A DNA stretch of 64,000 nt from Sphaerolaimus hirsutus (Eukaryota > Nematoda > Chromadorea > Monhysterida > Sphaerolaimidae). The stretch spans positions 10,420,529 through 10,484,528 of the forward strand of contig OZ038451.1 in assembly GCA_964036195.1 (NCBI GenBank), in the 5' to 3' direction. The position numbers and the translations under genes were made by a program. The notes beneath the pieces were generated by a model that was given only the letters and a program-made list of their open reading frames with translations, was not told the DNA's origin and searched no databases. Shown piece after piece: positions 2,521 to 59,407 of the stretch; within the stretch, counting starts at the first letter, position 1, and each line of letters starts with the position of its first letter.

Positions 2521-2722
2521 GTGCCAGTCCCAAACCCTGTATAATATAAAATCAAGTGTCAAATGTCATACAAATTTGTCAATTGTCATGCAAAGTGTCA
2601 GGCAAAGTGTCAATTGTCATGCAAACTCCAGTGATAAAATCTTTTCCTTTTGTTTTGATTGACATTTTACATGACATTTGACACTTGACTTTACACTTTA
2701 CAGTGCTTTGAATTTCCCCCAG
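2521..2722 (+). mobile_element. 202-bp introner-family element (no host exon seen)
   Basis: It begins GTGCCAGTCCCAAACCCTG and ends AATTTCCCCCAG, so as a unit it starts with GT and ends with AG and is exactly 202 bp, the same length as the elements at 3016-3217 and 33906-34107. The inside is rich in TGTCA/TGACA inverted repeats typical of the family. AG precedes both ends. I see no convincing coding flanks, so splicing here is not claimed. Confidence 0.6.
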
Positions 2723-2891: not shown

Positions 2892-3415
2892 TCAAAACGA
2901 ATTATCTCGACGCGCGGCCACTTTTTGCAGCCACTGTTTTAGCTGGTTGTACTTCCTCAAGTCCTCGCGATAATTGGTCATCTTGGTGTCCGCCAGGTTC
3001 AAAAGTCCCCCATATCTGGGGGCACTCCCAGAGCCTGTAAAATACCTGTCAAATGTCAAATGTCATACGAGGTCTCAAGAGCCCATGTAAAATGCCCTGC
3101 AGAATGGCAAACTTGACACTGCAATCTGCCATTTCGCAGGGCATTTTACATGACTTTTGACACTTTGCACGCCATTTGACATTTTCCTGGGCATTTTACA
3201 GGGTCCGGGAGTGGCACCTGTCCATGAACGCCGCTTTATCGTCATTTGAATAAGCCGTCCGTTCTCGTAGGCTGTTGTCATTCTTCCTGCCCCAAGTTCG
3301 CGGCCGGAGCACGGCTGCAGCGAGTTGACATATTTCTCATTATCGTCAACTCAGAAAGTTGGCAACTGAACGAGCTTACCAACGACTGGTTTGAATGCGG
3401 CCGGTCGCGAAATCG
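2892..3415 (-). CDS. 3' exons of an unrecognised minus-strand gene
   Basis: Three exons can be read on the minus strand. The last (3015 down to 2892, TGA at 2894-2892) encodes about 40 residues containing NLADTKMTNYREDL and KYNQLKQWLQKVAARRD. The middle exon (3286-3218) encodes KNDNSLRERTAYSNDDKAAF followed by MD. The upstream exon ends at 3380 with donor GTAAGC; its 5' limit near 3415 is a guess. The intron between the last two exons (3217-3016) is exactly one 202-bp inverted-repeat element, and splicing it joins ATG GAC AG|A TAT GGG in phase. The upstream intron is 93 bp (3379-3287). The sequence is helical and charged, as expected for a coiled-coil or helical C-terminus. I do not recognise the family. 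The start of the gene is not in the window: sequence beyond about 3415 shows no further exons I can support. Confidence 0.55.
3016..3217 (-). mobile_element. Introner element forming a whole intron
   Basis: Read on the minus strand the element starts GTGCCACTCCCGGACCCTG and ends GGGAGTGCCCCCAG. The two ends are inverted repeats of each other (the shared core CACTCCC, then CCTGTAAAAT). CAG lies before the element and is also its last three bases, consistent with a 3-bp duplication that supplies the acceptor AG. The exon reading frame is restored exactly on removal. Length is 202 bp. Confidence 0.75.
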
Positions 3416-12475: not shown

Positions 12476-13379
12476 GAGTTGTTTGAGGGAAGGGGCAAAA
12501 GGGTAAATACATTTTCCTGGAAAAAAAAGTTGTTTTTAGCTATTCTTGACATTTGCACAAAATGCCAATTTTCACACTTTGATGACCGATGACTCACTCA
12601 CAGTGGGTATTAAACGTGAATTACACAAACGTTCAAAAGAATGGATGATTTTCAGAAAATAAAATTAATTATAATGTTATACAATCTCTAAAAGTAAAAA
12701 TTTCATTCATTAACCTCTAAAAACCGCAGGAAAATAGCAATAAGTATCAATAATATCAATAATTTAGCATATGATTTATTATTTCACATTGGTCACATTT
12801 ATTACATAACATCAGCTTCTTGTGACAATTGTGTAAAACGTGTGATGCAGCTAGTAAATTTAAATGATAAATACAAAACGTAAATGTGTAAATTCTTTAG
12901 TACAGTGAAGGGTGGGGGACCTTTGCCCCCACAGCTACTCAGTAGTGGTTTGGCAGACCTCCGAAAATACTGAACAACTTTTTTAGCCGGTGCCTCGCAC
13001 CACTGTATAAGCGCTTGGCCCTCCAACGCGCTCAAGCCACTCAAAATGTAAAGTAAAAAAGTCGGATCATTGATCATTGTGACGTTTAAATTCACTAGTT
13101 TGTGTGTGTTTTGCCTGTTTTTTTTTGCCTATTTTTTTCAACTTTTTCCAATTTTTAGCTTTTCTCCATTTTCTACCCATCTATGCCTTGAAAAAGCATA
13201 TACTGTATTTCCTCGATGCACTGTTAGCGAAAAAATTTTGTCCTGTAAAATGTCAATTTTAAATAAAAAGGAGAAGTTTTTTTGACTGAAATTTTGACAC
13301 TATCTATGACAATTGACAATTTCTTAGGACATGAATCTAGATGAATGTTGGCACTTGCCCCTGCACGTAGCTAAATATT
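12476..13379. other. Non-coding sequence after the minisatellite
   Basis: AT-rich with isolated matches to other repeats (TGTATTTCCTCGA near 13204). Repeated at 23839-24742 and 62541-63437. A frame of about 97 codons at 12802-13095 on the minus strand is preserved in all copies, but only because the copies are nearly identical; no domain seen. Confidence 0.4.
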
Positions 13380-18693: not shown

Positions 18694-20622
18694 TATGATG
18701 TGATTACCATTGGTTTGGTGACGATTATACATCAGTCTAATTGTATTAAGAAAACGGCTTCATTCTGCTGGCTATGCCCGCCCATGAACTCGAACGCGGG
18801 CCGGCGGCGAACACAAAGGCAAACAAAAGGATTGTTTACGATGTCTTTTGTGTTTGCCGCCCTGGTCACATGATGTATTTCCTCCACATCGTTACCCTGT
18901 GTGCATTTTTACCCGCTGTGCATGGTTACCCGGCGCGCATGGTGTTGCCCGGTGTGCATGGCGGCCCGGTGTGCATGGAGGGGCGGCCGCCATGCACACC
19001 GGGCAACAATGCACACCGGGCAGCGAAAAATGCACAGCGGGTAAAAATGCACAGCGGGTAAAAATGCACAGCGAGTCTGGCTCTGTAAAATGTCAAGTGT
19101 CATGCAAAGTGTCCAAAGTCATGTAAAATGCCCTGGAAAATGGCAAACGCACGATTGCCATTTTTCAGAGCATTTTATATGACTTTTGGCATTTTACATT
19201 ATATTTTACGTTTTACATGACATTTGACATTTTACAGGGCATTTTACAGTTTCTGGGACTGCACCCAGGACAACGTCACGCAACAGCGTCGACGTGTCGC
19301 TGGACGCCAGTGCGCAAAGCTGCAAATGGCCAAGTTGTTGCTTATTTTTAAAAAGGCTGCTTTTGTGCTCAATTGAGAGTTCATGGTGCGGCTTATGCTC
19401 TTTTGGGCACAATATATAGGTTTTTTAAAAAGCGGCGCAGCGCTAGTGCTAAATGGGTCAAAGGTGTCTATAAGCTCCCCATATATTTGTGTATACCTAA
19501 ATGCATTGAATACTTGAATTAGAGTATATACACGTTAAATTCTTTCATATTTATTATTATTTGTCAAATAATAAATTGTTCCGATAAACATGACACATTT
19601 AAATATTTAACAGTTTAGAAAAAATTCCGTATTTTTTGAATAATTTTGCTGGGAAACAAACTTTTTTAGCATGATTATTTAAATAAATTGGACCGTTTTG
19701 GCAGGGGTTAAAATTCCACAAAATGTTTATCTTCACATTTCACATTGTTATAAAAAACACTGTTCATGTGTTACATTTGCTCAAAATGGTATTTGAAATT
19801 AGGTAATAATCATTACAGTTGTTAAAAGTAACCAAATTTATGCAAAATATATGTATAAGTGATTAGTATTAATATTTATGATAATAGAGTTGTTTACAAT
19901 TAATATACATACCTTTGACAAAAATTAAATTATTTATTTTATTCTTTTATTCATTTTTATCAGCTTAGAACATGAAAAAATGTTCAGAAAACATAATCAA
20001 TGACATACATTTTGCCCATTTTTGCATTCAGATTCACTAGTCCCAGTAAAATTCAAAGTTTTTTGTCCCTGTAAAATGTTACATTGGCTGTTGAATTAGG
20101 TATGGTGTGAAGTGGCATTTCTCAAGTGGCTTTTCTCAAGTGTTTTCTGCTGGCACAAATATAATATCAATTTTACTTTTGGAGTTTTCACAAAGAAATT
20201 TCAAATGAAATGTGCATATTTTGCATCAATATTACAGCATGTTATTACATTTGCACATAATGCTCATTTTTAGTTTCATGACAAAAATTTCCTTTACAGT
20301 ATTGTTTCTTGACATTTTGTCTAAAATTGAATGGTTTTTAATAACCATTCCCAGGTTCACTGGTGACTCTGGTGCAGAGTTGTTAAAAGTATCAAACTTT
20401 TTCTAAGTATACATAAACATAAAGTATTTATTTATTACTCAGCCCTGAGTGAGTACAGAAAATGTAAAGTAAAATTTTATACTTTTACTCATGAGTAAAC
20501 ATGAGTAAAATACTTTTTGAACCACAAAATTCTAATCAAGTATTATTGACCAATTTTTCCTATCAAAGCCAAGCCTATCAAAAATGCATTTTTTTACGAA
20601 AATGAATGAAATGTCATGATAG

Positions 20623-21410
20623 GAGACTGCGTGAAATGGAGAATCTGAGACTGTGCGAAATGAAGAATCTGAGACTGTGTGAAATGGAGAATCTGAGACT
20701 GTGCTAAAAGGAAGAATCTGAGACTGTGCAAAATGAAAATCTGAGACTGTTTGAAATGAAAATCTGAGACTGTGAAATGAAAATCTGAGACTGTGTGAAA
20801 TGAAAATCTGAGACTGTGCGAAATGAAAATCTGAGACTGTGCAAATGAAGAATCTGAGACTGTGCGAAATGAAGAATCTGAGACTGTGCGAAATGAAGAA
20901 TCTGAGACTGTGCGAAATGGAGAATCTGAGACTGTGCTAAAAGGAAGAATCTGAGACTGTGCAAAATGAAAATCTGAGACTGTTTGAAATGAAAATCTGA
21001 GACTGTGTGAAATGAAAATCTGAGACTGTGTGAAATAAAAATCTGAGACTGTGCGAAATGAAAATCTGAGACTGTGCAAATGAAGAATCTGAGACTGTGC
21101 GAAATGAAGAATCTGAGACTGTGCGAAATGAAGAATCTGAGACTGTGCGAAATGAAAATCTGAGACTGTGTGAAATGTATAATCTGAGACTGTGTGAAAT
21201 GAATAATCTGAGACTGTGCAAAATGGAGAATCTGAGACTGTGCGAAATGAAGGATCTGAGACTGTGAAGTGTGAGGATCTGAGACTGTGTGAAATGGAGA
21301 ATCTGAGACTATGCGAAATGGAGAATCTGAGACTGTGCTAAAATGGAAGAATCTGAGACTGTGCAAAATGAAGAATCTGAGACTGTGAAGTGTGAGGATC
21401 TGAGACTGCG
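20623..21410. repeat. Minisatellite AATCTGAGACTGTG, second unit
   Basis: Same array as 9258-10045, at offset 11,365, with no length change. Confidence 0.9.
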
Positions 21411-23838
21411 TGAGATGGAGATGTGAGAGTGCGCGAAGCTAGAAATGTGAGAGTGTGCGAAGCTGTAAACATGAGAGTGAGCACAATGGTAAAAATGTAC
21501 GAGTGAGCAAAATGGTAAATGTGAGAGTGAGCAAAATGGTAAATGTGAGAGTGAGTGAAATGGTACATGTGAGAGTGAGCGAAATGGTACATGTGATACA
21601 TTTACACATAGACATGTGAGAGTGTGCAAAACGTGACAATTCCAAATTCATACGTCATCTGTTTTTTTTGCTTATTTTCAGCTATTCTTGACATTTGCAC
21701 AAAATGCCAAATTTTTTCACACTTTGATGACCTATGACTCACTTACAGTAGGTATAAAAAGTGAATTTGTGAAGTGAAGTGAATTAGTTAAGTTAATTAA
21801 ATGTGAGAGTGTGCGAAGCTGCAAATGTGAGAGTGCGCAAAGCTGCAAATGTGAGAGTGCGCGAAGCTGCAAATGTGAGAGTGCGTGAAGCTAGAAATGT
21901 GAGAGTGTGCCAAGCTGTAAACATGTGAGAGTGAGCAAAATGGTACATGTGAGAGTGAACAAAATGGTAAATGTGAGAGTGAGCGAAATGGTACATGTGA
22001 TACATTTACACATAGACATGTGAGAGTGTGCAAAACGTGACAATTCCAAATTCATATGTCATCTGTTTTTTTTGCTTATTTTCAGCTATTCTTGACATTT
22101 GCACAAAATGCCAAATTTTTTCACACTTTGATGACCTATGACTCACTTACAGTAGGTATAAAAAGTGAATTTGTGAAGTGAAGTGAATTAGTTAAGTTAA
22201 TTAAATGTGAGAGTGTGCGAAGCTGCAAATGTTAGAGTGCGCAAAGCTGCAAATGTGAGAGTGCGCGAAGCTGCAAATGTGAGAGTGCGTGAAGCTAGAA
22301 ATGTGAGAGTGTGCCAAGCTGTAAACATGTGAGAGTGCGCGAATCTGCAAATGTGAGAGTGCGCGAAGCTGCAAATGTGAGAGTGCATGAAGCTAGAAAT
22401 GTGAGAGTGTGCCAAGCTGTAAACATGTGAGAGTGAGCGAAATGGTACATGTGAGAGTGAACAAAATGGTAAATGTGAGAGTGAGCGAAATGGTACATGT
22501 GATACATTTACACATAGACATGTGAGAGTGTGCAAAACGTGACAATTCCAAATTCATATGTCATCTGTTTTTTTTGCTTATTTTCAGCTATTCTTGACAT
22601 TTGCACAAAATGCCAAATTTTTTCACACTTTGATGACCTATGACTCACTTACAGTAGGTATAAAAAGTGAATTTGTGAAGTGAAGTGAATTAGTTAAGTT
22701 AATTAAATGTGAGAGTGTGCGAAGCTGCAAATGTTAGAGTGCGCAAAGCTGCAAATGTGAGAGTGCGCGAAGCTGCAAATGTGAGAGTGCGTGAAGCTAG
22801 AAATGTGAGAGTGTGCCAAGCTGTAAACATGTGAGAGTGCGCGAATCTGCAAATGTGAGAGTGCGCGAAGCTGCAAATGTGAGAGTGCATGAAGCTAGAA
22901 ATGTGAGAGTGTGCCAAGCTGTAAACATGTGAGAGTGAGCGAAATGGTACATGTGAGAGTGAACAAAATGGTAAATGTGAGAGTGAGCGAAATGGTACAT
23001 GTGATACATTTACACATAGACATGTGAGAGTGTGCAAAACGTGACAATTCCAAAGTCATACATCATCTGTTTTTTTGCTTATTTTCAGCTATTCTTGACA
23101 TTTGCACAAAATGCTAAAATTTTTTCACACTTTGATGACCTATGACTCACTTACAGTAGGTATAAAAAGTGAATTTGTGAAGTGAAGTGAATTAGTTAAA
23201 TGTGAATAGTTAAATGTTAGTTAAAAGTTAATTAAATGTGAGAGTGCGCGAAGCTGCAAACGTGAGAGTGCGCGAAGCTGCAAAAGAGTGCGCGAATCTG
23301 CAAATGTGAGAGTGCGCGAATCTGCAAATGTGAGAGTGTGCGAAGCTGAATTTTTTCACACTTTGATGACCTATGACTCACTTACAGTAGGTATAAAAAG
23401 TGAATTTGTGAAGTGAAGTGAATTAGTTAAATGTGAATAGTTAAATGTTAGTTAAAAGTTAATTAAATGTGAGAGTGCGCGAAGCTGCAAATGTGAGAGT
23501 GTGCGAAGCTGCAAACGTGAGAGTGCGCGAATCTTCAAATGTGAGAGTGCGCGAAGCTGCAAATGTGAGAGTGCGCGAATCTGCAAATGTGAGAGTGCGC
23601 GAAGCTGCAGATGTGAGAGTGTGTGAAGCTGCAAATGTGAGAGTGAGCACAATGGTAAAAATGTAAGAGTGAGCAAAATGGTAAATGTGAGAGTGAGCAA
23701 AATGGTAAATGTGAGAGTGAGTGAAATGGTACATGTGAGAGTGGGCAAGATGTTAAATGTGAGAGTGCACAAAATAGTAAATGTGAGAGTGAGCAAAATG
23801 GTAAATGTGAGAGTGAGCAAAATGGTAAACAGTAGGGG
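21411..23838. repeat. 24-bp minisatellite higher-order array, second unit
   Basis: Same as 10046-12475. It differs by a 2-bp loss inside one repeat (GCAAAAGAGTG at about 23281 versus GCAAATGAGAGTG) and one substitution in a spacer-adjacent word (GTGATACATTT versus GTGATCCATTT at 11137). Confidence 0.9.
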
Positions 23839-26800
23839 GAGTTGTTTGAGGGAAGGGGCAAAAGGGTAAATACATTTTCCTGGAAAAAAAAGTTGTTTTT
23901 AGCTATTCTTGACATTTGCACAAAATGCCAATTTTCACACTTTGATGACCGATGACTCACTCACAGTGGGTATTAAACGTGAATTACACAAACGTTCAAA
24001 AGAATGGATGATTTTCAGAAAATAAAATTAATTATAATGTTATACAATCTCTAAAAGTAAAAATTTCATTCATTAACCTCTAAAAACCGCAGGAAAATAG
24101 CAATAAGTATCAATAATATCAATAATTTAGCATATGATTTATTATTTCACATTGGTCACATTTATTACATAACATCAGCTTCTTGTGACAATTGTGTAAA
24201 ACGTGTGATGCAGCTAGTAAATTTAAATGATAAATACAAAACGTAAATGTGTAAATTCTTTAGTACAGTGAAGGGTGGGGGACCTTTGCCCCCACAGCTA
24301 CTCAGTAGTGGTTTGGCAGACCTCCGAAAATACTGAACAACTTTTTTAGCCGGTGCCTCGCACCACTGTATAAGCGCTTGGCCCTCCAACGCGCTCAAGC
24401 CACTCAAAATGTAAAGTAAAAAAGTCGGATCATTGATCATTGTGACGTTTAAATTCACTAGTTTGTGTGTGTTTTGCCTGTTTTTTTTTGCCTATTTTTT
24501 TCAACTTTTTCCAATTTTTAGCTTTTCTCCATTTTCTACCCATCTATGCCTTGAAAAAGCATATACTGTATTTCCTCGATGCACTGTTAGCGAAAAAATT
24601 TTGTCCTGTAAAATGTCAATTTTAAATAAAAAGGAGAAGTTTTTTTGACTGAAATTTTGACACTATCTATGACAATTGACAATTTCTTAGGACATGAATC
24701 TAGATGAATGTTGGCACTTGCCCCTGCACGTAGCTAAATATTATTTACACTGGCAGCAGTCCCCGCTAGCTTTTTGTGTGTATTTTCTTTAAGTTGGGTA
24801 GAAACACCAATCTGACTAAAATAATTATATCTACTTTTTCTTTTCTGTTCTTGTTCTTTTCACAAAAGCATTGAAAAACATGTTATTGAACATTTCTGAG
24901 CAAAAGTAGACTTGGTGCCAACAGTTGTGTAGGTATTTTCCAAACAAATTTATTGTGCGACATTTGCACACAATGGCAAAATGTTTGCAAAATACAGAAA
25001 AATCGCTGGCGCCAAGGCTACTTTTGTTCAAAAATGTTCCATAACATGTTTTACAATGCTTTTGTGCAAAAAAAACAGACAGCAAAAACAAATATAAATA
25101 TTCTAAACGGTTGCAGTTTTATTATGTTTTAAAGAAAATACTGGAACATTTTCAAGTAAATGTGGCCTTGGCACCAGCATTTTTGTTACTGTTTTCTTGA
25201 AAACTTAAAGAAACCACAATTGATAAAAATATATATTTTTATCTACCTATTTTTTGTTGTCTGTTTTTTTGCACAAAAGCATTGAAAATCATGTCATAGA
25301 ACATTTCCAAGCAAAAGTAGACTTGGCGCCAGCATGTTTATGAGTATTTTCTTCAAGACAGAAAGAAATGGCAGTTGACCAAAATATTTATAATTATTTT
25401 TGATGTCTGTTTTTTTGCACAAAAGCATTGAAAAACATGTCATGAAAGATTTCCAAGCTAAAGTAGTTTTGGCGCCAGCATTTTTGTGTGTATTTTCTTT
25501 AAGTCGGGTAGAAACACCAATCCGACTAAAATAATTATATCTACTTTTTGTTTTCTGTTTTTTTTTCTTCACAAAAGCATTGAAAAACATGTTATTGAAC
25601 ATTTCTGAGCAAAAGTAGACTTGGTGCCAACAGTTGTGTAAGTATTTTCCAAACAAATTTATTGTGCGACATTTGCACACAATGGCAAAATTTGCAAAAT
25701 ACAGAAAAATGCTGGCGCCAAGGCTACTTTTGTTCAAAAATGTTCCATAACATGTTTTACAATTTTTGTGCAAAAAAAAGACAACAAAAACAAATATAAA
25801 TATTCTAGATGATTACGATTTCTTTCCATCTTGAAGAAAATTCTCACATTTTTTTCACATTGCTCACATAGCATTTGCGATCAAAAATACAGGCAATTGC
25901 AAAGGAAAATGAAGGGGCACTGCGAACGAAAATTCTGGGGGCTCTGCGAACGAAAATTCTGGGGGCTCTGCGAACGAAAATTCTGGGGGCTCTGCGAACG
26001 AAAATTCTGGCAAATTGCACTATAACGCGGGATTGAATCCCGTTCAAATCCTTAGAGGGATCAAATCTCGTTCGAATCACTAGAGGGATCGAATCCCATT
26101 GAAATCCTTAGAGGGATCGAATCTCGTTTGCGCCCTTTTTTCTGTCGCTTTTAAATCACTAGACACCTGGGGGCAGTTCCGCTGAGACGAAATTGCATCA
26201 TTTATGCGTCAATTTTACTGTTCTCTACATTTGCACACAATCGCTCTGCGCATGCTAGTTTGCAGCTGAAATTTATTGGAGTTAGGGATTGTGTTTGACA
26301 GGCTGCAGCTTTTTCCAGGGGCCAGTCCTGCACCCTGTGAACATAATGTAAATGTTGACTGTCTAGAATTTGTCAAAAATTGAATACATTTTACAGTGTC
26401 TTTTACATGACATTTGACACTTTACAGGGTTTATTACATCATGACATATGACATTTTACAGGGTCTTTTACACTTTACAGGGTTCAATACATTTTACAGG
26501 GTCTTTTACATGACATTTGACACTTTACGGGGTTTATTACATCATGACATATGACATTTTACAGGGTTTTTTACACTTTACAGGGTTCAATACATTTTAC
26601 AGGGTCTTTTACATGACATTTGACACTTTACAGGGTTTATTACATCATGACATACCGTATTTCCTTGAAATACCCCCCCCAGATTGCCTTTTTTCTCCCT
26701 TTTTCCTTCTAAAGCTTGAAAAACTCCATATAGGTATTGAACCCCTGCGACCCCCCCTCAAAAAACATCAAATATACACATGATTTGTGATGGAATGGCG

Positions 26801-33700: not shown

Positions 33701-36700
33701 GGCGCTCAATTTTGTTAGCTAAGCAATTCCTACAAATTTGCCAAGGTTTACCTACTACAAAAGTGGTGGACAAACTCGCAACGTTTCATTTCGCAGTGGA
33801 GAAGCTGGATTATCACCGCTTGGCTCCGCCCACTTTCTACCTAGCAGCTAAGCGGTGCGCTTTGACCACTAGCACGGCACTTTCGTCGGCGCCGAAACGC
33901 GTCAGGTGTCAATCCCAGACCCTGTAAAATGTCAAGTGTCATGCAAAGTGTCCAAAGTCATGTAAAATGCCCTGGAAAATGGCAAACGCACGATTGCCAG
34001 TTTTCAGAGCATTTTATATGACTTTTGGCATTTTACATTATATTTTACGTTTTACATGACATTTTACATTTTACAGGGCATTTTACAGTGTCTGGGACTG
34101 CGCCCAGGACAACGTCACGCAACAGCGTCGACGTGTCGCTGGACGCCGCGCAGGAGGAGCACGCGGTCGCTTCAAAATCCGATGCGCACATTAAGTTGAC
34201 CGCGCCGGCGGCCAGTGCGGACAAGTCCATGCAGCGTATTTTGGTTGGTGCTGGCACCTATTTTTTACAAATGATTATCATATTTTTTAAGTTCATTTTT
34301 TCAAAAACAAGGTGAACATTTATCTTTTTTTAATCAAGGTGTTTTGAAAAACAGATTTTTTTTCCAACCGTAGGGCCATCCGACATTGACTTAAAATATG
34401 TGTCCGTAAAAAGTGTCTACGCAGGCGCTGTGTGCGAGTGCGCAACGAGTCGTGCACGGGCGTCCACAAGCAACAATGTTCAGCGGCACAAACAGATTGA
34501 AACCGTCGCCCAAGAAGCGCGACCGTTTGAAGTCGCCGCCCAAACCAACTACAGTGGTGCCAAGCGGACCAGCTCTTCCTGCATCCACCGGTGCAGTTGC
34601 AGCCGCGGCGGCAATTCAATGCTCTGCTTCCAGTTCGGACGCGCCGGCTGGTGCCTCTCCCAGACCCTGTGAAATGCCATGTAAAGTGTGAAATGTCAGG
34701 TGAAGTGTGTAAATACATGTAAAATGCCCTGGAAACTGGGAAACTTAGTTTCTATCTCACCAGGCATTTTACATGACACTTGACACTTTGCACCACACTT
34801 GACACTTTACATGGCATTTTCCAGTGTCTGTGAGTGCCCCCTGGTCTTGCCGCCGTGGCCGGCGACGCGGCGCTCACCGCGAGACTGGGCGCTATGACGC
34901 AACACTGCAGGGCGCTGTCGCCGCTCAGAAAGGCCGGCGCGGCGCTGCGGCAGCCGCTCAGTGGGGCGGCAGCGGCGGGGGTGGGTCAGCCTGCGGCTGC
35001 AAAGTCGCTCACGTGTGTGAGTGGGGGAAATGTGGGAGAGTGTGTGATGCGGGGGTATCTTGAATTTTGACCCCCCGGGGGTTGGATGGATGGGAAATCG
35101 CTCCTCCGGAGGGATAGATAGCTGGAAAAAATTTTTTGATGGGGGGGTCGATATATAGGTTTTTTTAAGGTGAAGAATGAAGAAAATCGCTAAAATTAGG
35201 GGAAACATTTATTAAAATAGGTTTACAAGCACATTTAGCCAAAAATAGCTGAAAAGTGGCAATAATTTGCCGCTGGGATAGATAGATAGCTGGGCGATTT
35301 GGGGGGTTTCCCGTCCGAAACACCACCCCCCCCCCATTCGAAACCCCTGATATGATGGAATTGGTGTGCTGTAGCAAAACGTGTTTCTCTATTTTGCAGG
35401 CCTCTCGCCCCCTCGTCCCGACTCGAGCTGCCAGGTCCAAAACTGCTTTTCTGCCTAAACAAGCAAAAACGTTGGTTGATATTCTGCACAGTTGTTAAAA
35501 TGTACGTACATTTACTCAAAAAATACGCGTACGCGAGTACGCGGTAAATACATTTACATATACTTTTTTAAAGTAATGTACTCACTTTTACGCGTACATT
35601 TTAAAAGTACACGCGTACAGAGAAAATGTATTTTGTTGTTAAAATCCCACTTTTCTGTTGCTAAAATAAGAAAATTTTAAAGAAATCATCATTTTTCTAG
35701 AAAATACTAAATAATCACTAAAAAAGACATCTATTATGCCTTCCAGTGTAAAACTCACTCTCTAGTGTAAAACTCACTATAAAAGGTAGTAGCTTTTACG
35801 TTTTCCGGGGGAAAGTACCCGCTTTTACATTTTCCTGGGAAAAAAAGTATTTTACTCACATTTACGCATGAATACGAGTAAAAAAAGTATTTTACATTTT
35901 CTATACTTTGTGGTGAGTAAAAAAATAAATACTTACATTTACACATACTTTTGAAAAAAGTTAAGTAATTCTAACAAGTCTGATATTCTGCCGTTTTCGT
36001 TTTCGCACACACGTTATGAAGATATTTAACGAATTTTTTCGTTTGCATTTTAAGGCGCGCAGTTCAAAAGCCAGCTGCGGCACCGGTCAGCAGAAATGGG
36101 TCCGCAGTTTCTGATAACGTGGATCAAAGTGTAATTGCGCAACAGCTCAGCGCCGAACAGCAGGCTGTGAAAGAGGAATTCAAAAAGAAAAGACTGAAGG
36201 TTCTGGGCGAGGCGACAGAATTCTTCCATGAACTGCTGCAACTGCAGCATGCATTCATTGAACCGCTGCCCATGATGTTTCGCAAAATTGTGGGTTATTC
36301 TTATTTGTTAGAATTTGTAACAATTGGAACTGAAAAAATTGAACTTTGTACATTTTTCGTGGCAACCGCATGACAGAAAACAGATGCGTCAGCAAAAAAT
36401 ATCCACGCAGTGTTCGACCGAGGAACGACCACCAGACAAGTCTGCACCAGTGAAACCAGTGGCAACCAGTGAAAAAGTACCATCCGTTTCAGCTACAAAT
36501 CAGTCACCTCAAGCGGACACACCAATGGACAAGCAAAGCACTAGTGGTGTTACCGCCGTAAAAAAAGAGCCTACAAAAAATTCTGGCGCTATGATCATTG
36601 GCACAGATCCAAATCCGGACGATTCAGATGATTCTGATGCGGATGGACCTACGTGCATCATTGCCGATTCGGTGGAGACTGTAAAACAGGCGCCAAAGCC

Positions 36701-44334: not shown

Positions 44335-44782
44335 TCACCTGACTCTAGAAAACTCAAATGCATCCAAAGCGGTGTTTAATTTAAATTGGTGTTTTGAGAG
44401 GAAGTGCACCATTTCTGCATCATTTTACAGTTCATTACATTTGCACAAAATGGCTCTGTGCACAATGGTTTTCAATCAAATCTTTCAATTTTTAGCTTCA
44501 AACTCATTTGATGTTTCTAGAATGAGTCATTCTTCATCTCTATCAACTGTAGTTAACAGTCACCTCATTCTAGAATACTCAAATGCATTCAAAGATATGT
44601 AAACGTATTTACTCAGTACTTGAGTGAATATGATGTTTTAAGCAGAGTTGTTCAAATTGTCATACTTTTTTGAAAGTATATGTAAATATAAAGTATTTAT
44701 TTTTACTCACCCCTGAGTACAGAATATGTAAAGTAATTTTTTTTTCATTTTCTCACATTTACCATTTTGTGCACTTTACATT
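44335..44782. other. Non-coding repeats
   Basis: Shares a TGCACCATTTCTGCATCATT / AATGAGTCATTCTTCATCTC block with 54985-55190 and 56180-56320, then an AGAGTTGTT..AAAGTATATGTAAATA piece shared with 55240-55340. No gene. Confidence 0.45.
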
Positions 44783-45455
44783 TTTATCATTGTGCTCACT
44801 CTCACGTTTACTGCTTCGAGCACACTAACATTTCTAGCTTCACACACTCTCACATTTGCAGCTTCGCGCACTCTCACATTTGCAGCTTCTCGCACTCTCA
44901 CATTTGCAGCTTCGCGCACTCTCACGTTTACAGCTTTGCACACTCTCACATTTGCAGCCTCGCGCACTCTCACGTTTGCAGCTTCGCGCACTCTCACATT
45001 TGCATCTTCGCGCACTCTCACATTTACAGCTTCGTGCAGTCTCACATTTGCAGCTTCGCGCACTCTCATATTTGCAGCTTCAAGCACTCTCACGTTTACA
45101 GCTTCGCGCACTCTCACATTTGCAGCTTCAAGCACTCTCACGTTTACAGCTTCGCGCACTCTCACATTTGCAGCTTCGCGCACTCTCACATTTGCAGCTT
45201 TGCGCACTCTCACATTTGCATCTTCGCGCACTCTCACATTTGCAGCTTTGCGCACTCTCATATTTGCAGCTTCAAGCACTCTCACGTTTACAGCTTCGCG
45301 CACTCTCACATTTGCATCTTCGCGCACTCTCACATATTCAGCTTCAAGCACTCTCACGTTTACAGCTTCGCGCACTCTCACATTTGCAGCTTTGCGCACT
45401 CTCACGTTTACAGCTTCGCGCACTCTCACATTTGCAGCTTAGCGCACTCTCACAT
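44783..45455. repeat. 24-bp minisatellite in inverse orientation
   Basis: About 27 copies of TGCAGCTTCGCGCACTCTCA plus CATT, the reverse complement of the 10046-12475 unit. There are no interspersed spacers, and the variants differ (TTCAAGCACTCTCACGTTTA). It is the only inverted array in the window. It stays open in several frames on both strands for over 200 codons, which is a product of its 24-bp period. Confidence 0.9.
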
Positions 45456-45564
45456 TTAATCAACTTCACTTCACAAATTGAATTAACGAGATTAAATGAG
45501 TGATTTTAAGAGATAATTCTGTAGAAATATTTCAAAAATAGACACCTACCGTATTACCTCGAAA

Positions 45565-46714
45565 CCTTGTAAAGTGTCAAAGGTCGTGTAAAATGTCGCA
45601 TATTGTGTAAACTGTCGCGCAAACTGTCTATTGTCATTCAAAATGTCAAAAGTTCAGTAATGCAATTTTGTATTTTTATTGCCGCTTGACAGGGTGCGGC
45701 ACTGCTCCCTGGTTTTGCGTGACACTCTCAACCATGCCAATGTACACATCTATAACCTGCATCTGCCATGCCCACAGAAGCCGACCGACTGCGCGTACTC
45801 GTACAGCGGGTGGGCGCCGGTGCTGGGTCGGCTGCTGGAGGCGCTGCTGGGCGGCTGGTCGCAGCCGCACCTGCTCGACGCCGTCAAGTCGCTGCCCGGC
45901 GCCATGGAAGTCAACTTGCGTCGGTTGTTGTGTGTGTGTGTACATTGGTGTGGGTGGTTGCCCGAATTGGTTCGGTTGGCACCTGGCTACTGATTTGCAT
46001 TGAAAAACTCTTTTGGGAGCTTTATATTTGAAAAAACGTTAGAAAAAAATCATAAGATTATGTTTTTATTTATTTTTATTTTTAATATTTTTATTTTTGC
46101 CAGAATTTTCAGATTTACTTAATTATATCTTCATTTTGAGTGATTTTCTGAGATTAAAAAAATCACATTTTTATGTATTTTTATTTTTCCGACTAGAGTT
46201 GATTATATTTTCTCAAAATCACCCTATCCTATCAATGCTACTACCTATATTTGATTTTCTTGGAAGCGACAGTATCAATCCCTGATTTTTTAAGTGAAAA
46301 TTTTACTTTTCACATTTTACCCTTACTATAAAGACTTTGAATTTCCACGCCGCCCCACATTTCAGCTTGCGAAAGCGACACCGCAAGCAAATCGGTCCCA
46401 GATCCAGGTGCCTCGGAGCGCCGGCCGTCTGTGCTCATGATCGTGATCGGTGGGATCACATTTGGTGAGATGTCCGCGCTACGAATGGTTGCCAGGCAGA
46501 GGGGTGAGTCGACGGATCGTGTCCCTGTAGTCATGTAAACCCGCCAGTCATGTATTTTTTTGGGGGGGGGGGAGGAGCAACGATGGAGGAAACTTTTTTA
46601 TGACCATTTCGCTGTTTCGCAGGATTCAATTTGATGGTTGTAACGACGAGCGTGATAAATGGGGAGCGATTTTTGGAACAGTTTCACACGTTGCTGCCGG
46701 ATGGTATGATGTGA
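45565..46714 (+). pseudogene. VPS33A: VPS33A 3' fragment, last three exons (copy 3)
   Basis: Only exons 45778 to about 45919 (KPTDCAYSYSGWAPV...), 46366-46503 and 46623-46714 (TGA 46712-46714) are present. The sequence starts abruptly at 45565 inside an introner-family element, joined to a CCGTATTACCTCGAA repeat end, so the two preceding exons are missing. Differences from the other copies include GCC to ACC (Ala to Thr) in the fourth exon and GTC to ATC (Val to Ile) shortly after. The introns lack both the 289-bp TA element and the 458-bp hAT-like element, so this copy preserves the empty sites. The 3' flank equals that at 30055. With no 5' part it is best treated as a broken copy, although the retained frames are intact. 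Confidence 0.8.
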
Positions 46715-47193: not shown

Positions 47194-49540
47194 ATGAAAA
47201 ATGTGCAGAAGCCAAATTTGAGCATGGATACTGATTTGGCGCTGCTCATGAAGCGCTACGGCTACCAAGCGACCAGTGGCCCCGAAACTCAGAGATTGAT
47301 CCAGGAATATGTGAGTGGTTGTTTTGTTTTTATATTTTGGTCCTTTGGCTGTGTCCGCCCTTTGTGTAATGGGTGTAAACGTGGTAATTTTTCAAGTGTT
47401 TTTTAAGATGATATTTCAAGATTAAGTAGTTTTCGATATTTTCCTAGTCCATTTTCGATTTTTTTCTGCTAAATTTTGTATATATCTTGATGCTCACCGG
47501 CATTCTGCGGTACCGTACACATTCCAAACATGCGCCACAGAACTTTACAATCTGCCACCCTAGAATAGGCTTCCATTTTCATTCGCACCTTGACCGTTGC
47601 TCAACAACGAGTCAATTGATAAAGAACGCGCATGTGATCACTGACCTGCTCGCATGAAATTCCTCATTGTGAGTTCCTACGTCATTTGATTGCATTTTCA
47701 GTTGAGCCGGCCCGTGGATCATGCGCTGGTGGCGGCGAATCTGCGTCGGGTGCTGCTGCGATGCATGGATAAAGCCAGGGAAAGCGTGCAGGCTGCCGAC
47801 CAGACCGCCGTTAGTCCACCGTCCCCCGATCCCACACACTAGTTGACATCACAAATAAATGTCAACTGAATGTCAACTAAAAAACATGAAAAAAAGTTTA
47901 AGGCATCACATTTTACAGAAACAATGGAAATTAAGTGTCACGATATTTTGTTAACAATGTTCTATCAAATAGAAAGTCGAAATCAAATAATTAACCAAAA
48001 TTTAGTTGACATCGATTTTGATGTCAACTAGAGTGTTGGAGCCCAATGGCCCTACACACACTAGTTTTCACCGTGACCATTATGAAAACTGAAATGGCGA
48101 CATGGCGACATCCAGCGTACTCTTTTTGTATGCTATGTGTTTCAGTTTTAAAATTTTAAATTTTAACAGTCATTCATTTACATTCCAATTAATATAAAAT
48201 CAAATCATTCAACCGTGTTCATTAATTTGCATTTGAAAAATTTTCAGTTTTCACACGAAGTCACTGTGAAAACTAGTGTGTGTAGGCACAATCTGCCGTA
48301 TTTATTCGAGCGGCGCTCGCAGGCGACGGCGGCTCTGCACCAGCGCATGCGCGAGCAGGAGACGCTCATCTCCAAGCAGGAGGAGGACTTGTCGTCGTTG
48401 CGCAAGCAGTTGGCGCAGTGCCAACGCGAACTGCACACCAAGCAGCAGATCGCCGACGCGGCGCACGCCGACCAAACCGCCGCGTCGCGCGACGGCCCAG
48501 ACTTGGAAAAGTGGAAGGAAAAGTATGAGGTTGGGTTGCGCCTTTAGAATGTCATGCTGAAAATATGCCATGAGTCACGTCAACTAGTTATTTTGAAGGT
48601 GCAAATTGACAAAAGGTAGTTTTATTAGCGATTTTGAGCAAAAGTTGGGATGAAATTTCTCAAAAATCGTTTCAGGTGGCTAAATAGCTGGCCGATTTAG
48701 GGGTGTTAAAAAACGAAGCTAAAACCTTTCCCTCTGGGAAAGGTAGATAGCTGGGCGGCCTCCGGGATAGATAGCTGGGCGATTTTGATTGTAAGCCCCC
48801 CCCCCTTATCGGAACCCCTGTAAATGCGTGTGTTACACAGAGCGCTCAGAGCACCCTGAAGCAGTACCAGGACAAGACTGAGCAGCTGAGACACGATCTG
48901 CACGCTGCCAATTCGGGACGTAGGGCTGTGGAAGATAAATGCAAGGTGCTCTATTGGCGGCCCACACACTAGTTGACACACGCGTGTCAACTGGCCTGTG
49001 TCAACTCAGATTTCGGTTTCACATGTCGCATAACGACCTTCCAATGCCATTTCCGTAATATTTTTTCAACATTGCAGAATGTGCATTTGGAGATCGCCCT
49101 GCTTCAGGTGAAGCCGAAATCTGAGTTGACATCAATACTGTGTAAACTAGGGCCGCCTTGATTTTGTTATTTTGATAATTATTTAGGTCAACTTAATCGT
49201 GATGTTATTTTAAAAATTTGTACGTAGACACTACAAAGCGATTTGCTCGCCATGAAGCGTCGATTGGATGCGGTCGAGGGTCGAGCATCTGAGTTAACAC
49301 TGTTGAAAAATGCTCTGCGAAAATGGCAGCACGCTGGCGCTCAATTTTGTTAGCTAAGCAATTCCTACAAATTTGCCAAGGTTTACCTACTACAAAAGTG
49401 GTGGACAAACTCGCAACGTTTCATTTCGCAGTGGAGAAGCTGGATTATCACCGCTTGGCTCCGCCCACTTTCTACCTAGCAGCTAAGCGGTGCGCTTTGA
49501 CCACTAGCACGGCACTTTCGTCGGCGCCGAAACGCGTCAG

Positions 49541-49742
49541 GTGTCAATCCCAGACCCTGTAAAATGTCAAGTGTCATGCAAAGTGTCCAAAGTCATGTAA
49601 AATGCCCTGGAAAATGGCAAACGCACGATTGCCAGTTTTCAGAGCATTTTATATGACTTTTGGCATTTTACATTATATTTTACGTTTTACATGACATTTT
49701 ACATTTTACAGGGCATTTTACAGTGTCTGGGACTGCGCCCAG
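49541..49742 (+). mobile_element. Introner element forming an intron, copy B
   Basis: Identical in position and length (202 bp) to 33906-34107. Confidence 0.75.
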
Positions 49743-50285
49743 GACAACGTCACGCAACAGCGTCGACGTGTCGCTGGACGCCGCGCAGGAGGAGCACGCG
49801 GTCGCTTCAAAATCCGATGCGCACATTAAGTTGACCGCGCCGGCGGCCAGTGCGGACAAGTCCATGCAGCGTATTTTGGTTGGTGCTGGCACCTATTTTT
49901 TACAAATGATTATCATATTTTTTAAGTTCATTTTTTCAAAAACAAGGTGAACATTTATCTTTTTTTAATCAAGGTGTTTTGAAAAACAGATTTTTTTTCC
50001 AACCGTAGGGCCATCCGACATTGACTTAAAATATGTGTCCGTAAAAAGTGTCTACGCAGGCGCTGTGTGCGAGTGCGCAACGAGTCGTGCACGGGCGTCC
50101 ACAAGCAACAATGTTCAGCGGCACAAACAGATTGAAACCGTCGCCCAAGAAGCGCGACCGTTTGAAGTCGCCGCCCAAACCAACTACAGTGGTGCCAAGC
50201 GGACCAGCTCTTCCTGCATCCACCGGTGCAGTTGCAGCCGCGGCGGCAATTCAATGCTCTGCTTCCAGTTCGGACGCGCCGGCTG

Positions 50286-50478
50286 GTGCCTCTCCCAGAC
50301 CCTGTGAAATGCCATGTAAAGTGTGAAATGTCAGGTGAAGTGTGTAAATACATGTAAAATGCCCTGGAAACTGGGAAACTTAGTTTCTATCTCACCAGGC
50401 ATTTTACATGACACTTGACACTTTGCACCACACTTGACACTTTACATGGCATTTTCCAGTGTCTGTGAGTGCCCCCTG
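50286..50478 (+). mobile_element. Introner-family intron with unusual 3' end, copy B
   Basis: Same as 34651-34843; the terminal CCCCCTG is also conserved here. Confidence 0.6.
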
Positions 50479-51122
50479 GTCTTGCCGCCGTGGCCGGCGA
50501 CGCGGCGCTCACCGCGAGACTGGGCGCTATGACGCAACACTGCAGGGCGCTGTCGCCGCTCAGAAAGGCCGGCGCGGCGCTGCGGCAGCCGCTCAGTGGG
50601 GCGGCAGCGGCGGGGGTGGGTCAGCCTGCGGCTGCAAAGTCGCTCACGTGTGTGAGTGGGGGAAATGTGGGAGAGTGTGTGATGCGGGGGTATCTTGAAT
50701 TTTGACCCCCCGGGGGTTGGATGGATGGGAAATCGCTCCTCCGGAGGGATAGATAGCTGGAAAAAATTTTTTGATGGGGGGGTCGATATATAGGTTTTTT
50801 TAAGGTGAAGAATGAAGAAAATCGCTAAAATTAGGGGAAACATTTATTAAAATAGGTTTACAAGCACATTTAGCCAAAAATAGCTGAAAAGTGGCAATAA
50901 TTTGCCGCTGGGATAGATAGATAGCTGGGCGATTTGGGGGGTTTCCCGTCCGAAACACCACCCCCCCCCCCATTCGAAACCCCTGATATGATGGAATTGG
51001 TGTGCTGTAGCAAAACGTGTTTCTCTATTTTGCAGGCCTCTCGCCCCCTCGTCCCGACTCGAGCTGCCAGGTCCAAAACTGCTTTTCTGCCTAAACAAGC
51101 AAAAACGTTGGTTGATATTCTG

Positions 51123-51618
51123 CACAGTTGTTAAAATGTACGTACATTTACTCAAAAAATACGCGTACGCGAGTACGCGGTAAATACATTTACATATACT
51201 TTTTTAAAGTAATGTACTCACTTTTACGCGTACATTTTAAAAGTACACGCGTACAGAGAAAATGTATTTTGTTGTTAAAATCCCACTTTTCTGTTGCTAA
51301 AATAAGAAAATTTTAAAGAAATCATCATTTTTCTAGAAAATACTAAATAATCACTAAAAAAGACATCTATTATGCCTTCCAGTGTAAAACTCACTCTCTA
51401 GTGTAAAACTCACTATAAAAGGTAGTAGCTTTTACGTTTTCCGGGGGAAAGTACCCGCTTTTACATTTTCCTGGGAAAAAAAGTATTTTACTCACATTTA
51501 CGCATGAATACGAGTAAAAAAAGTATTTTACATTTTCTATACTTTGTGGTGAGTAAAAAAATAAATACTTACATTTACACATACTTTTGAAAAAAGTTAA
51601 GTAATTCTAACAAGTCTG
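51123..51618. mobile_element. hAT-like element in intron, copy B
   Basis: Same insertion as 35487-35982, duplication ATATTCTG at 51115-51122 and 51619-51626. Confidence 0.85.
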
Positions 51619-53017
51619 ATATTCTGCCGTTTTCGTTTTCGCACACACGTTATGAAGATATTTAACGAATTTTTTCGTTTGCATTTTAAGGCGCGCAGTT
51701 CAAAAGCCAGCTGCGGCACCGGTCAGCAGAAATGGGTCCGCAGTTTCTGATAACGTGGATCAAAGTGTAATTGCGCAACAGCTCAGCGCCGAACAGCAGG
51801 CTGTGAAAGAGGAATTCAAAAAGAAAAGACTGAAGGTTCTGGGCGAGGCGACAGAATTCTTCCATGAACTGCTGCAACTGCAGCATGCATTCATTGAACC
51901 GCTGCCCATGATGTTTCGCAAAATTGTGGGTTATTCTTATTTGTTAGAATTTGTAACAATTGGAACTGAAAAAATTGAACTTTGTACATTTTTCGTGGCA
52001 ACCGCATGACAGAAAACAGATGCGTCAGCAAAAAATATCCACGCAGTGTTCGACCGAGGAACGACCACCAGACAAGTCTGCACCAGTGAAACCAGTGGCA
52101 ACCAGTGAAAAAGTACCATCCGTTTCAGCTACAAATCAGTCACCTCAAGCGGACACACCAATGGACAAGCAAAGCACTAGTGGTGTTACCGCCGTAAAAA
52201 AAGAGCCTACAAAAAATTCTGGCGCTATGATCATTGGCACAGATCCAAATCCGGACGATTCAGATGATTCTGATGCGGATGGACCTACGTGCATCATTGC
52301 CGATTCGGTGGAGACTGTAAAACAGGCGCCAAAGCCACGAGAGAAGAAACTGCCCGCCGCCCGGCAGGTTGAAAAACCCCCTAGCGATGCGATGGTGTGT
52401 GTGCAAGTGCTTTTTGGCCCACCCTAGTTATTGGCACGTGTTCTATTTTTCCTCAAATCCACTAGAATTTCATATTGGTCCTGCACGGTGTGAAATTCCC
52501 GTCACGAATCACGATCTGTCAAGTAAATTCACTTTTCTATTTTCCTTCTGACAGTGATAAAGTAATTTTCCTTCTGACAGTGATAAAGTAATTTTCCTTC
52601 TGACAGTGATAAAGTAGTTTTCCTTCTGACAGTGATAAAGTAAAGGTTTCATTGACGTAGGCGTAGGCCTACTAGTCATCCTAACCCGCTAGTCATGTAG
52701 ACCCGCCAGTCATGTGTTTATACCTGCTACTCATCTATGCCTAATTTTGGGGCATAGATGACTAGCGGGGTGATAAGCGACAGCCGGGTTCACATGATTA
52801 GTAGAGTACAAAGCGCAGGCCGCAGTGCGTGTGCACTACAGTAGTAAATGCGTGAGCCATTTTTCTGGCACTTTTCCATCACTAATTCGGAGCCATCACG
52901 CGCAGACAGCGGATAATGACCCAATGAGTGTGGACCGAGCTTCGCTGTACTTCAACCGGACGGTGAACGCTATCTGCGTGGCCGGTCTCCGTGCGGTGCT
53001 GGACAAAAGTTGGTCGG

Positions 53018-53231
53018 GTGCCTGCCACTCATGACTCTGTCAAATGTAAAATGACAGGCAGAGTGTAAAATGTCCTGAAAAATTGCAAAAGTTTGCAATT
53101 TTGCAGGCATTTTACATGACTTTTGACACTGCATGAAATTTGACATTTTACACGGCATTTTACATCACTTTTCACACTTTACATGCCGTTTGACATTTTA
53201 CACGGTATTTTACAGGGTCGAGTGCCCCCAG
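53018..53231 (+). mobile_element. Introner-family element at exon edge, copy B
   Basis: Same as 37382-37595. Confidence 0.65.
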
Positions 53232-54532
53232 TAAGACCTCTGCACCATTTACAAACCTGTAAAATACATATGTGCCGTGCAACGCAGAGTCGGCAACTGC
53301 GTTGGACGAGTCGCACGCGTACGTGCGCGAACTGGACGCGGCGTGGCGCGGCTACAGCTGCGTGGACGGCGGCAGGCACGCCACCGCCGCCCTGGCCAAC
53401 ATGGTCGTCGAGCTGGTCGACTCGGTGGAAAAGCTGGTCGCTGCCAGTGAAGGTGGTTCTTTGCTTCATAGAACATTTTGGCTCTGTTTAGTTTTGAGTT
53501 CCTCGCGGGTCTCTGGGAAATGTAGATTTTAACAATATTTCTTGTTATAATTCTCGGACTGCACAGTTTACATCCCATCTGAGCGAAAAATGACAAACAA
53601 ATTCTCTCGTGAGTTACATTGCTTTCACTATCGGTGGGCTTGGTGCACAATTTTTCACATAACTTTAGTTGTTGCAGGCTTTTTGAGATGTACAAAAAAA
53701 GTAAAAAATCGATAAAAAAATTACTGAAAATCGGTATATAAGCGCACATAAATACTACAAAAAATAGCTGAAAATAAACAATAAAACACATGAACTAGTG
53801 ATTTTGAATGAAAATTAGGGTCTACATGCACACCGGGTTTACATGCGCAGCAGGTTTCAGTCATAATCTATCCTCTAAACACCGCCATCATATCTAGACG
53901 GCAGCGAGCTGGTGTGGGTAGGCGACTCGGCCGACCCGACGGTGCCCAAGCGCTTTGCTGTTCTTCTGGTGGTGCTGTCTCGGTTCTGGCGCCAGCTGCT
54001 CGCCGCCATGGACACCATAAACCACGCCGCCAGGCACGAACTGCAGAAGGTTGTTGCGGGGTGGGGATTTGGGTACTTTTGATGAACCATTTTGAAATAC
54101 GTTTTAAGGTACCTGGTAGGGTGTCAGATGCGGTGGGGTAAATTTCGGAAAATGCGGTGCACGGTACGGTACGGTAAATTTTTCACATTTGCGGTACGGT
54201 ACGGTAAATTCTGTCACGCCAGTACCTGGTGTGAAATTTTATTACCCATCCAGACAGTAAAAGCTGCCAAACATGCCGAATGGCGTTCGTTTGAACGTCT
54301 ATTCTTTTGAACAATTTCTTTTTTTAATTTAGAGGTGCTTTCCGTTCGTGTATAGAGCAAGCATCACTGATAGTGATTTGACGCGCACTGGATTTGACGA
54401 ACATGTCAGTTACAGGCTTTAGGCGATCTCGACGAGACAGTGCAAGATCTTCACACATTTTTCGGCCAGGGTTCGCAGTCCGGCCGCTCGACCACCAAAC
54501 AAACAGTTGCCGCGGCTGTGTCCATTGCTCGG

Positions 54533-58118: not shown

Positions 58119-59407
58119 AGTTGTTGCTTATTTTTAAAAAGGCTGCTTTTGTGCTCAATTGAGAGTTCATGGTGCGTCTTATGCTCTTTTGGGCACAATA
58201 TATAGGTTTTTTAAAAAGCGGCGCAGCGCTAGTGCTAAATGGGTCAAAGGTGTCTATAAGCTCCCCATATATTTGTGTATACCTAAATGCATTGAATACT
58301 TGAATTAGAGTTTATACACGTTAAATTCTTTCATATTTATTATTATTTGTCAAATAATAAATCGTTCCGATAAACATGACACATTTAAATATTTAACAGT
58401 TTAGAAAAAATTCCGTATTTTTTGAATAATTTTGCTGGGAAACAAACTTTTTTAGCATGATTATTTAAATAAATTGGACCGTTTTGGCAGGGGTTAAAAT
58501 TCCACAAAATGTTTATCTTCACATTTCACATTGTTATAAAAAACACTGTTCATGTGTTACATTTGCTCAAAATGGTATTTGAAATTAGGTAATAATCATT
58601 ACAGTTGTTAAAAGTAACCAAATTTATGCAAAGTATATGTATAAGTGATTAGTATTAATATTTATGATAATAGAGTTGTTTACAATTAATATACATACCT
58701 TTGACAAAAATTAAATTATTTATTTTATTCTTTTATTCATTTTTATCAGCTTAGAACATGAAAAAATGTTCAGAAAACATAATCAATGACATACATTTTG
58801 CCCATTTTTGAATTAAGATTCACTAGTCCCAGTAAAATTCAAAGTTTTTTGTCCCTGTAAAATGTTACATTGGCTGTTGAATTAGGTATGGTGTGAAGTG
58901 GCATTTCTCAAGTGGCTTTTCTCAAGTGTTTTCTGCTGGCACAAATATAATATCAATTTTACTTTTGGAGTTTTCACAAAGAAATTTCAAATGAAATGTG
59001 CATATTTTGCATCAATATTACAGCATGTTATTACATTTGCACATAATGCTCATTTTTAGTTTCATGACAAAAATTTCCTTTACAGTATTGTTTCTTGACA
59101 TTTTGTCTAAAATTGAATGGTTTTTAATAACCATTCCCAGGTTCACTGGTGACTCTGGTGCAGAGTTGTTAAAAGTATCAAACTTTTTCTAAGTATACAT
59201 AAACATAAAGTATTTATTTATTACTCAGCCCTGAGTGAGTACAGAAAATGTAAAGTAAAATTTTATACTTTTACTCATGAGTAAACATGAGTAAAATACT
59301 TTTTGAACCACAAAATTCTAATCAAGTATTATTGACCAATTTTTCCTATCAAAGCCAAGCCTATCAAAAATGCATTTTTTACGAAAATGAATGAAATGTC
59401 ATGATAG

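Follow-up and report, generated by a model that had tools for sequence, protein, structure and literature searches.

A fold-back DNA transposon family as a probable source of exactly removed introns in the nematode Sphaerolaimus hirsutus

The element at 33906 and its host gene

The window, meaning the whole 64,000-nt stretch analysed here, contains a coding sequence that is interrupted at position 33906 by a 202-nt repeated element (Table 1). The letters at this site read CAG-GTGTCAATCCCAGACCCTG...GTCTGGGACTGCGCC-CAG. When base 33905 is joined to base 34108, one of the three frames is open across 90 nt on either side, with codon phases 2 then 1. A sequence-only reading of the same DNA had proposed a 202-bp GT..AG intron with these phases, and both the letters and the single open frame agree with it.

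The gene lies in a duplicated segment. The 6.5 kb around it recur at 48003–54532 with 99.6% identity; through this tandem duplication the copies at 33906 and 49541 are identical and do not form an independent pair. Ten copies of the element-bearing segment are located on the same contig within 0.35 Mb, and other paralogs are found as far as 0.3 Mb away. In the joined frame, substitutions in the flanks of the tandem paralogs are silent in eight cases and replacing in one (upstream 4:1 among six sequences, downstream 4:0 among seven). The remaining two frames give silent to replacement ratios of 1:4, 0:5, 0:4, and 1:3. One paralog, L038, was omitted from the upstream count, as its left flank is a satellite repeat of the 24-bp kind also present in the window, which replaces the coding sequence that other paralogs have left of the intron copy. 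Across eight paralogous element copies, the first 17 bases, the last 32 bases, and the flanking CAGs are invariant, and the interior varies. An empty site was sought among the paralogs, and all seven with both coding halves contain the element. Pfam searches with nine open frames of the window and the joined frame yielded no match above the cut-off, and the gene is unnamed. Searches of the window with Rfam and for tRNAs gave no matches. The earlier proposal that the whole intron consists of the repeated element is borne out by the silent changes among the paralogs and by conserved genes elsewhere in the genome. Judged from its sequence, 33906–34107 is an introner-derived intron, which would be removed by splicing.

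Table 1. Element copies and associated features in the window, and copies in genes with Pfam matches above the cut-off
Feature	Place	Strand	Triplets (left/right)	Remarks
Coding sequence preceding the putative intron	33757..33905	+		Phase-2 end; 33757 not fixed as exon start
Left target-site duplication	33903..33905	+		CAG; final bases of upstream exon
Putative intron	33906..34107	+	CAG/CAG	Transposon copy (33906–34104) plus right copy of target duplication (34105–34107); GT start, AG finish
A-end inverted repeat	33906..33931	+		GTGTCAATCCCAGACCCTGTAAAATG; putative source of GT donor
B-end inverted repeat	34079..34104	+		Reverse complement, GGGGCAGTCCCAGACCCTG type
Right target-site duplication	34105..34107	+		CAG; putative source of AG acceptor
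Coding sequence following the putative intron	34108..34243	+		Next donor GT probably at 34244
Second copy	3016..3217	-	CAG/CAG	Open frame, phase 2 then 1
Diverged copy	2521..2722	+		GT..AG ends; left triplet TAG; coding context not clear
Further copy	34651..34843	+	CTG/CTG	Intron would be GT-TG; flanks without clear coding selection
Identical copy	49541..49742	+		Tandem duplicate of 33906–34107
Further copy	50286..50478	+		Tandem duplicate of 34651 copy
OSCP1	L059		CAG/CAG	Pfam 3.4e-19 across junction
OSCP1	L058, neighbour of L059		CTG/CTG	Pfam 4.4e-17 across junction
MON2	L019		CTG/CAG	Pfam 2.3e-22 across junction
HSP90 (TRAP1)	L020		CTG/CAG	Pfam 1.2e-22 across junction
DOMON protein	L012		CTG/CTG	Pfam 4.2e-8 across junction
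Srx-type GPCR	L033		CTG/CTG	Pfam 1.3e-7 across junction
Leucine-rich repeat protein	L048			Seventh copy above cut-off; match not across junction

The sequence-only reading had also pointed to a similar element at 3016–3217 in a gene on the opposite strand, and a minus-strand open frame was indeed found around it. A third 202-bp element had been named at 2521–2722: its GT..AG ends are as described, but the element is not surrounded by a clear open frame. The flanks of the copy at 34651 are unlike those of the 33906 copy, with best silent to replacement ratios of 4:7 and 3:4.

Two tandem duplications are present in the window, at 7338–30057 (11.36 kb, 99.9% identity) and 32366–54532 (6.5 kb, 99.6%). 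It also contains 24-bp satellite arrays at about 9260–12500, 20620–23860, 44680–45580, and 59400–62540, of which the array at 44.7 kb is open in several frames.

The transposon family

The 19-base end motif (up to 3 mismatches) occurs 19 times in the window and not once in 100 shuffles. The host genome was searched over 348 Mb in 762 contigs. The exact left 22-mer of the A-end with an adjoining CWG (CAG or CTG) was found 2,099 times, 1,119 of them with CAG, and the exact right 22-mer of the B-end 1,442 times, 853 of them with CAG in the sense direction, while the reversed controls gave 0 in both cases. CTG is read at 41% of the right ends. These counts uphold the earlier judgement that chance is unlikely. 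A genome search with the element itself returned at least 84 matching stretches from the 40 that were scored among 3,998 candidates. Thirty genome copies, aligned with their flanks, form one unit with unlike inverted ends and CWG mostly on both sides. The common A-end is GTGCCARTCCCAGACCCTG and the common B-end, read inward, is GGGGCARTCCCAGACCCTG; the A-end starts with GTGCCA, whereas the B-end finishes with TGCCCC.

A two-ended scan of the fetched loci and the window, allowing up to 4 mismatches per end, produced 143 rows counting both strands. Filtering for a GT start and a CC or CT finish reduced these to 67, and removal of the tandem-cluster loci L034–L039 and of the window's second tandem copies left 52, including the tandem pair L008/L010. 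The triplets of these 52 copies are CAG/CAG in 19, CTG/CTG in 13, CTG/CAG in 7, CAG/CTG in 0, and other in 13. Since the triplets are equal in 32 of the 39 pairs with CAG or CTG on both sides, exceeding the 50% expected if they were independent (p 3e-5), CWG is read as a 3-bp target duplication. The consensus, to which 46 of the 52 copies were aligned, measures 190 nt without the duplication, and median distances of the copies from it are 5 to 8 percent by class. GTGCCA starts 41 of the 46 aligned copies, GT being a selection criterion. The suggested size peak near 202 bp did not appear: exactly 202 is found in 2 of the 52 copies, and element plus duplication has a median of 193 (quartiles 180.5–202). 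By these features, the family is a short non-autonomous inverted-repeat DNA transposon, an almost full-length fold-back, that would reach CWG sites by transposition. The copy at L033 4240–4385 has the ends GTGGCA and, on the other strand, GTGCCA, and thus a GT start in both orientations.

A 3-bp target duplication, here CWG, is a feature of PIF/Harbinger transposons, and the CWG preference of this superfamily would suit the element. The genome contains 163 matches to the Harbinger-type domain PF13359. A Harbinger transposase is a candidate for the partner that would drive the element's transposition, but the element ends are absent from 6.9 kb around the single Harbinger-type gene examined. 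One Harbinger-type family, seen at L060–L062 (G000:C2:10034600-10041500), is about 100% identical over 2.4 kb at 40 of 40 scored places. It is a young family that underwent a very recent burst.

Conserved genes across the junctions

For 32 distinct copies, picked by eye for open frames, the element and its right triplet were taken out, the coding sequence on either side was joined, and the product was compared with Pfam. Matches above the curated cut-off were obtained for seven copies and span the junction in six; the other 25 gave none above the cut-off. Two of the six are in OSCP1, which contains two element introns, one at a CAG and one at a CTG target. OSCP1, TRAP1, and MON2 are conserved and, as a rule, single genes. 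The alignment of TRAP1 with its human counterpart is gapless at the junction (SRRVL/IQSHAKG, with the slash marking the junction). Among eight other exon starts of TRAP1, picked by eye, seven have an AG at the start or within 3 bases of it. At the GPCR locus, a TM7-like NPFVYLYF segment is located further along. In a side observation on the reverse strand of L021, at about 4744, a CTG/CTG copy interrupts an apparent single membrane helix, GLTIALASAIGL/AVLFAAITAFLMMQLRATRR, precisely in frame. No Pfam family above the cut-off was found for this split-helix reading.

Reading frames and orientation

If the element is retained, no frame is open in any copy (0 of 50 to 52, depending on flank length). 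When the flanks are joined over 90 nt, stop-free frames are equally common in the sense and antisense directions (31 of 50 in each). A single-frame test of these flanks was uninformative as well. A codon-usage score was trained on 11 of the 51 scored copies, each being left out of its own test. Flanks were called coding-like if their score passed the level that one tenth of randomly chosen places in the fetched loci exceed. By this measure, the sense flanks of 15 of 18 CAG/CAG, 10 of 13 CTG/CTG, 4 of 7 CTG/CAG, and 3 of 13 other copies resemble coding sequence, so that equal-triplet copies reach 25 of 31, compared with 10% of the random places. Element copies are enriched in genes, with the reservation that they are a non-random sample of the genome.

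The in-frame join scores better than joins shifted by 1–2 bases in 17 of 18 CAG/CAG, 8 of 13 CTG/CTG, 3 of 7 CTG/CAG, and 6 of 13 other copies, where chance would give one third. The effect is strong for CAG/CAG (p 1e-7), modest for CTG/CTG (p 0.03), and not significant for CTG/CAG. High codon-usage scores are also frequent in the antisense direction (12 of 18 CAG/CAG and 9 of 13 CTG/CTG). Antisense readings compared with Pfam gave 0 of 10 above the cut-off, the best E being 0.1, with fewer copies tried than in sense. Most copies carry GT at one end only, and all seven Pfam-supported copies have that orientation relative to their gene. The idea that both orientations might be spliced, raised with the original proposal, finds no backing in the Pfam-supported copies or in the ten antisense readings. 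A reading of the CTG/CTG copies as antisense insertions with an 18-nt in-frame exon extension was rejected, as three of them have sense-strand Pfam matches.

Proposed mechanism and predicted fold

In the proposed mechanism, a non-autonomous DNA transposon of about 190 bp would insert at a CWG (CAG or CTG) and duplicate those three bases. Insertion into an exon on the A-to-B strand would yield a pre-mRNA of the form ..CAG-GTGCCA...TGCCCCCAG-.., in which the A-end would provide the GT and the right triplet would provide the AG when the target is CAG. The intron would comprise the element plus one copy of the triplet, and splicing would therefore restore the coding sequence exactly, whatever the phase. 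The element RNA would fold as a long hairpin and place the donor beside the acceptor. This introner explanation, i.e., a fold-back transposon that inserts as a ready-made and exactly removed intron, is assigned a probability of about 0.88.

Folded alone, the element is predicted to form a single long hairpin, with z-scores against shuffles of -10.4 for the 33906 copy, -14.2 for OSCP1, and -21.6 for TRAP1. Across 46 copies, a median of 82% of bases are paired (minimum 53%), compared with 58% for random stretches (up to 40), among which a single one reaches 85%. When the same number of copies is folded with 20-nt flanks, both bases of the GT are unpaired in 2 copies and at least one of them in 29; for the last two bases, the corresponding counts are 14 and 29. 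The splice sites are thus not clearly free in the predicted fold. The notion that the hairpin hides every inner AG was discarded: of the 98 inner AGs within the final 60 nt, 69 are completely paired, and the last inner ACAG of the 33906 copy is unpaired. From the modelled fold, the stem may guide splicing.

CTG targets

Exact removal of the CTG/CTG copies in the OSCP1, DOMON, and GPCR genes would require a GT-TG intron, and the domain matches of all three agree with exact removal (MDKLYDL/MTMACKYQ in OSCP1). From these sequences, GT-TG introns at CTG/CTG copies are the simplest of several possible readings. The CTG/CTG copies have a median consensus distance of 6.5% (n=9), compared with 7.9% (n=19) for CAG/CAG (p 0.6). 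With no clear shift towards the consensus, they do not resemble fresh insertions that have yet to be eliminated, although the sample is small. AG is found at 59% of right ends (853/1,442), compared with CAG at 53% of left ends (1,119/2,099; p 0.0007), and the unequal pairs comprise 7 CTG/CAG and 0 CAG/CTG (p 0.016). As a right end, AG thus seems to be better and TG to be tolerated.

A tentative explanation, itself rather doubtful, is that the 3' end is set by structure. The hairpin would join the two ends, and the spliceosome would cut at the CWG where the stem begins, whether this triplet ends in AG or in TG. CTG insertions would begin as constitutive GT-TG introns in a family numbering thousands, and a later change of the right T to A would give CTG/CAG.

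Alternative explanations

The transposon might have landed in pre-existing introns or intergenic DNA, with GT..AG ends by chance. The 13 copies with unmatched or degraded triplets, only 3 of which have coding-like flanks, would suit such an origin, as would the 2521 copy with its unclear coding context. A copy within an older intron would, however, leave intron sequence on either side, whereas in six copies a conserved domain runs on unbroken from the last base ahead of the element to the first base behind it, and TRAP1 aligns with its human counterpart without interruption; this origin is very improbable for the family. Nor is it at all probable that the elements simply disrupt genes, so that many of the host gene copies have lost their function or the insertions are polymorphic, and the open frames are remains from before insertion. 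The CTG/CTG copies lack an AG at the exact junction, and the GPCR-type genes could be pseudogenes, as this explanation would expect. Against it stand the 8:1 excess of silent changes in the coding halves of the element-bearing 33906 paralogs, the TM7-like segment at the GPCR locus, the usually single-copy status of OSCP1, TRAP1, and MON2, and the distances from the consensus, by which the copies are not all brand new. Equally far-fetched is removal of the hairpin without the spliceosome through pairing of its ends, as suggested for euglenid nonconventional introns. An almost full-length stem would draw the ends together, and exact removal at CTG sites would leave a non-AG border. Yet the right triplets have drifted towards AG, as expected if AG is used, and most other exon starts of TRAP1 have an AG at or near them. 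Euglenid nonconventional introns have no conserved GT..AG borders, whereas this family has a conserved GTGCCA start, with the GT selected for, and right ends that are mostly AG.

A weightier objection concerns the CTG targets alone, where a nearby AG might replace the terminal TG and make the protein slightly longer or shorter, leaving only the CAG copies as exact introns. This is conceivable but not likely. The OSCP1 CTG/CTG copy has an in-frame AG 45 nt upstream, which would add 15 residues without a stop, and three more that keep the frame at 18, 24, and 30 nt past the junction; for the GPCR copy, such a site lies 60 nt downstream. Human TG acceptors are described only where an AG is close by, and in the examples given there it follows the TG by no more than 28 nt (PMC2374985). 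In the nematode copies, by comparison, the nearest AG upstream for the same donor lies 19 nt before the TG in OSCP1, DOMON, and GPCR alike, and its use would shift the frame. The domain matches of these three genes suit exact removal. Use of the downstream AGs would remove between 6 and 10 residues from the domain match in OSCP1 and 20 residues in the GPCR, and for the DOMON copy no AG between 80 nt upstream and 60 nt downstream would keep the frame.

Relation to known introners

Several features of introners are found in this family. The copies resemble one another up to both splice boundaries (30-copy alignment and the ends of the 52 copies) and have inverted repeats and a target duplication. 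Insertions of the element lie in coding sequence, and their removal restores the frame (six Pfam matches among the 32 copies tried, and the TRAP1 alignment). By the features tested, the element is an introner. For Aureococcus, Huff et al. in 2016 reportedly described introners in which an inverted-repeat DNA transposon gives rise to great numbers of introns. According to a figure legend, the Aureococcus introners have an 8-bp duplication (PMC9860276), in contrast to the 3-bp CWG found here.

The introner survey of Gozashti et al. 2022 reports introners in only two animal groups and names copepods (PMC9860276). The survey describes splice sites that derive from the target duplication, at the 5' site in Symbiodinium and at the 3' site in Chrysochromulina. 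The present family shares with the surveyed introners, as presented there, near-identical introns to near the splice sites, inverted repeats, a target duplication, and enrichment in genes. It differs in its 3-bp CWG duplication, near full-length fold-back, animal host, and right ends, two fifths of which are non-AG. GT-TG introners as such are already known: the Micromonas introners IE-B and IE-D, with 25 and 6 members, likewise have GT-TG splice-site classes (PMC3879977), and the term "inverted repeat" is absent from that text. Unlike in IE-B and IE-D as described there, GT-TG would here follow from insertion at CTG in a family that gives GT-AG at CAG.

Introner elements of Amoebophrya have inverted repeats that fold the intron so that its ends meet, non-canonical borders, and direct repeats of 3–5 nt at the borders (PMC7789003). 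The same paper describes highly variable borders and motifs and an apparent loss of U1, whereas one family with the same GT end and a fixed target is found here. Tunicates are likewise an animal lineage, with many non-GT/AG introns, for which an origin from introner transposons that carry weak splice sites is suggested as one possibility (PMC13326754). S. hirsutus differs from them in its mitochondrial code, table 5, and in its other TRAP1 introns, which look AG-ended.

The mitochondrial genome of the host was recovered at L002–L003 (G000:C762). It measures 14,754 bp with 17% GC, uses the invertebrate code (table 5), and has nad1 and nad2 on the opposite strand. The code, the AT-rich mitochondrial genome, and the animal-type genes indicate an invertebrate. 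By eye, atp8 was not seen, and ARAGORN gave no tRNAs under the bacterial code.

Significance

The origin of new introns is a long-standing question, and the process is visible in very few animal lineages. Here, about 2,000 exact left ends are present in one animal genome with chromosome-length contigs. The duplications are legible in many copies and record the original target (CAG or CTG), the present splice site, and the extent of change between them. If the 3' end is indeed set by structure, the family would represent an extensive natural series that shows step by step how a new intron brings its own splice site to maturity. If the CTG copies are spliced as GT-TG introns, this genome would directly test how far RNA structure can substitute for the AG rule.
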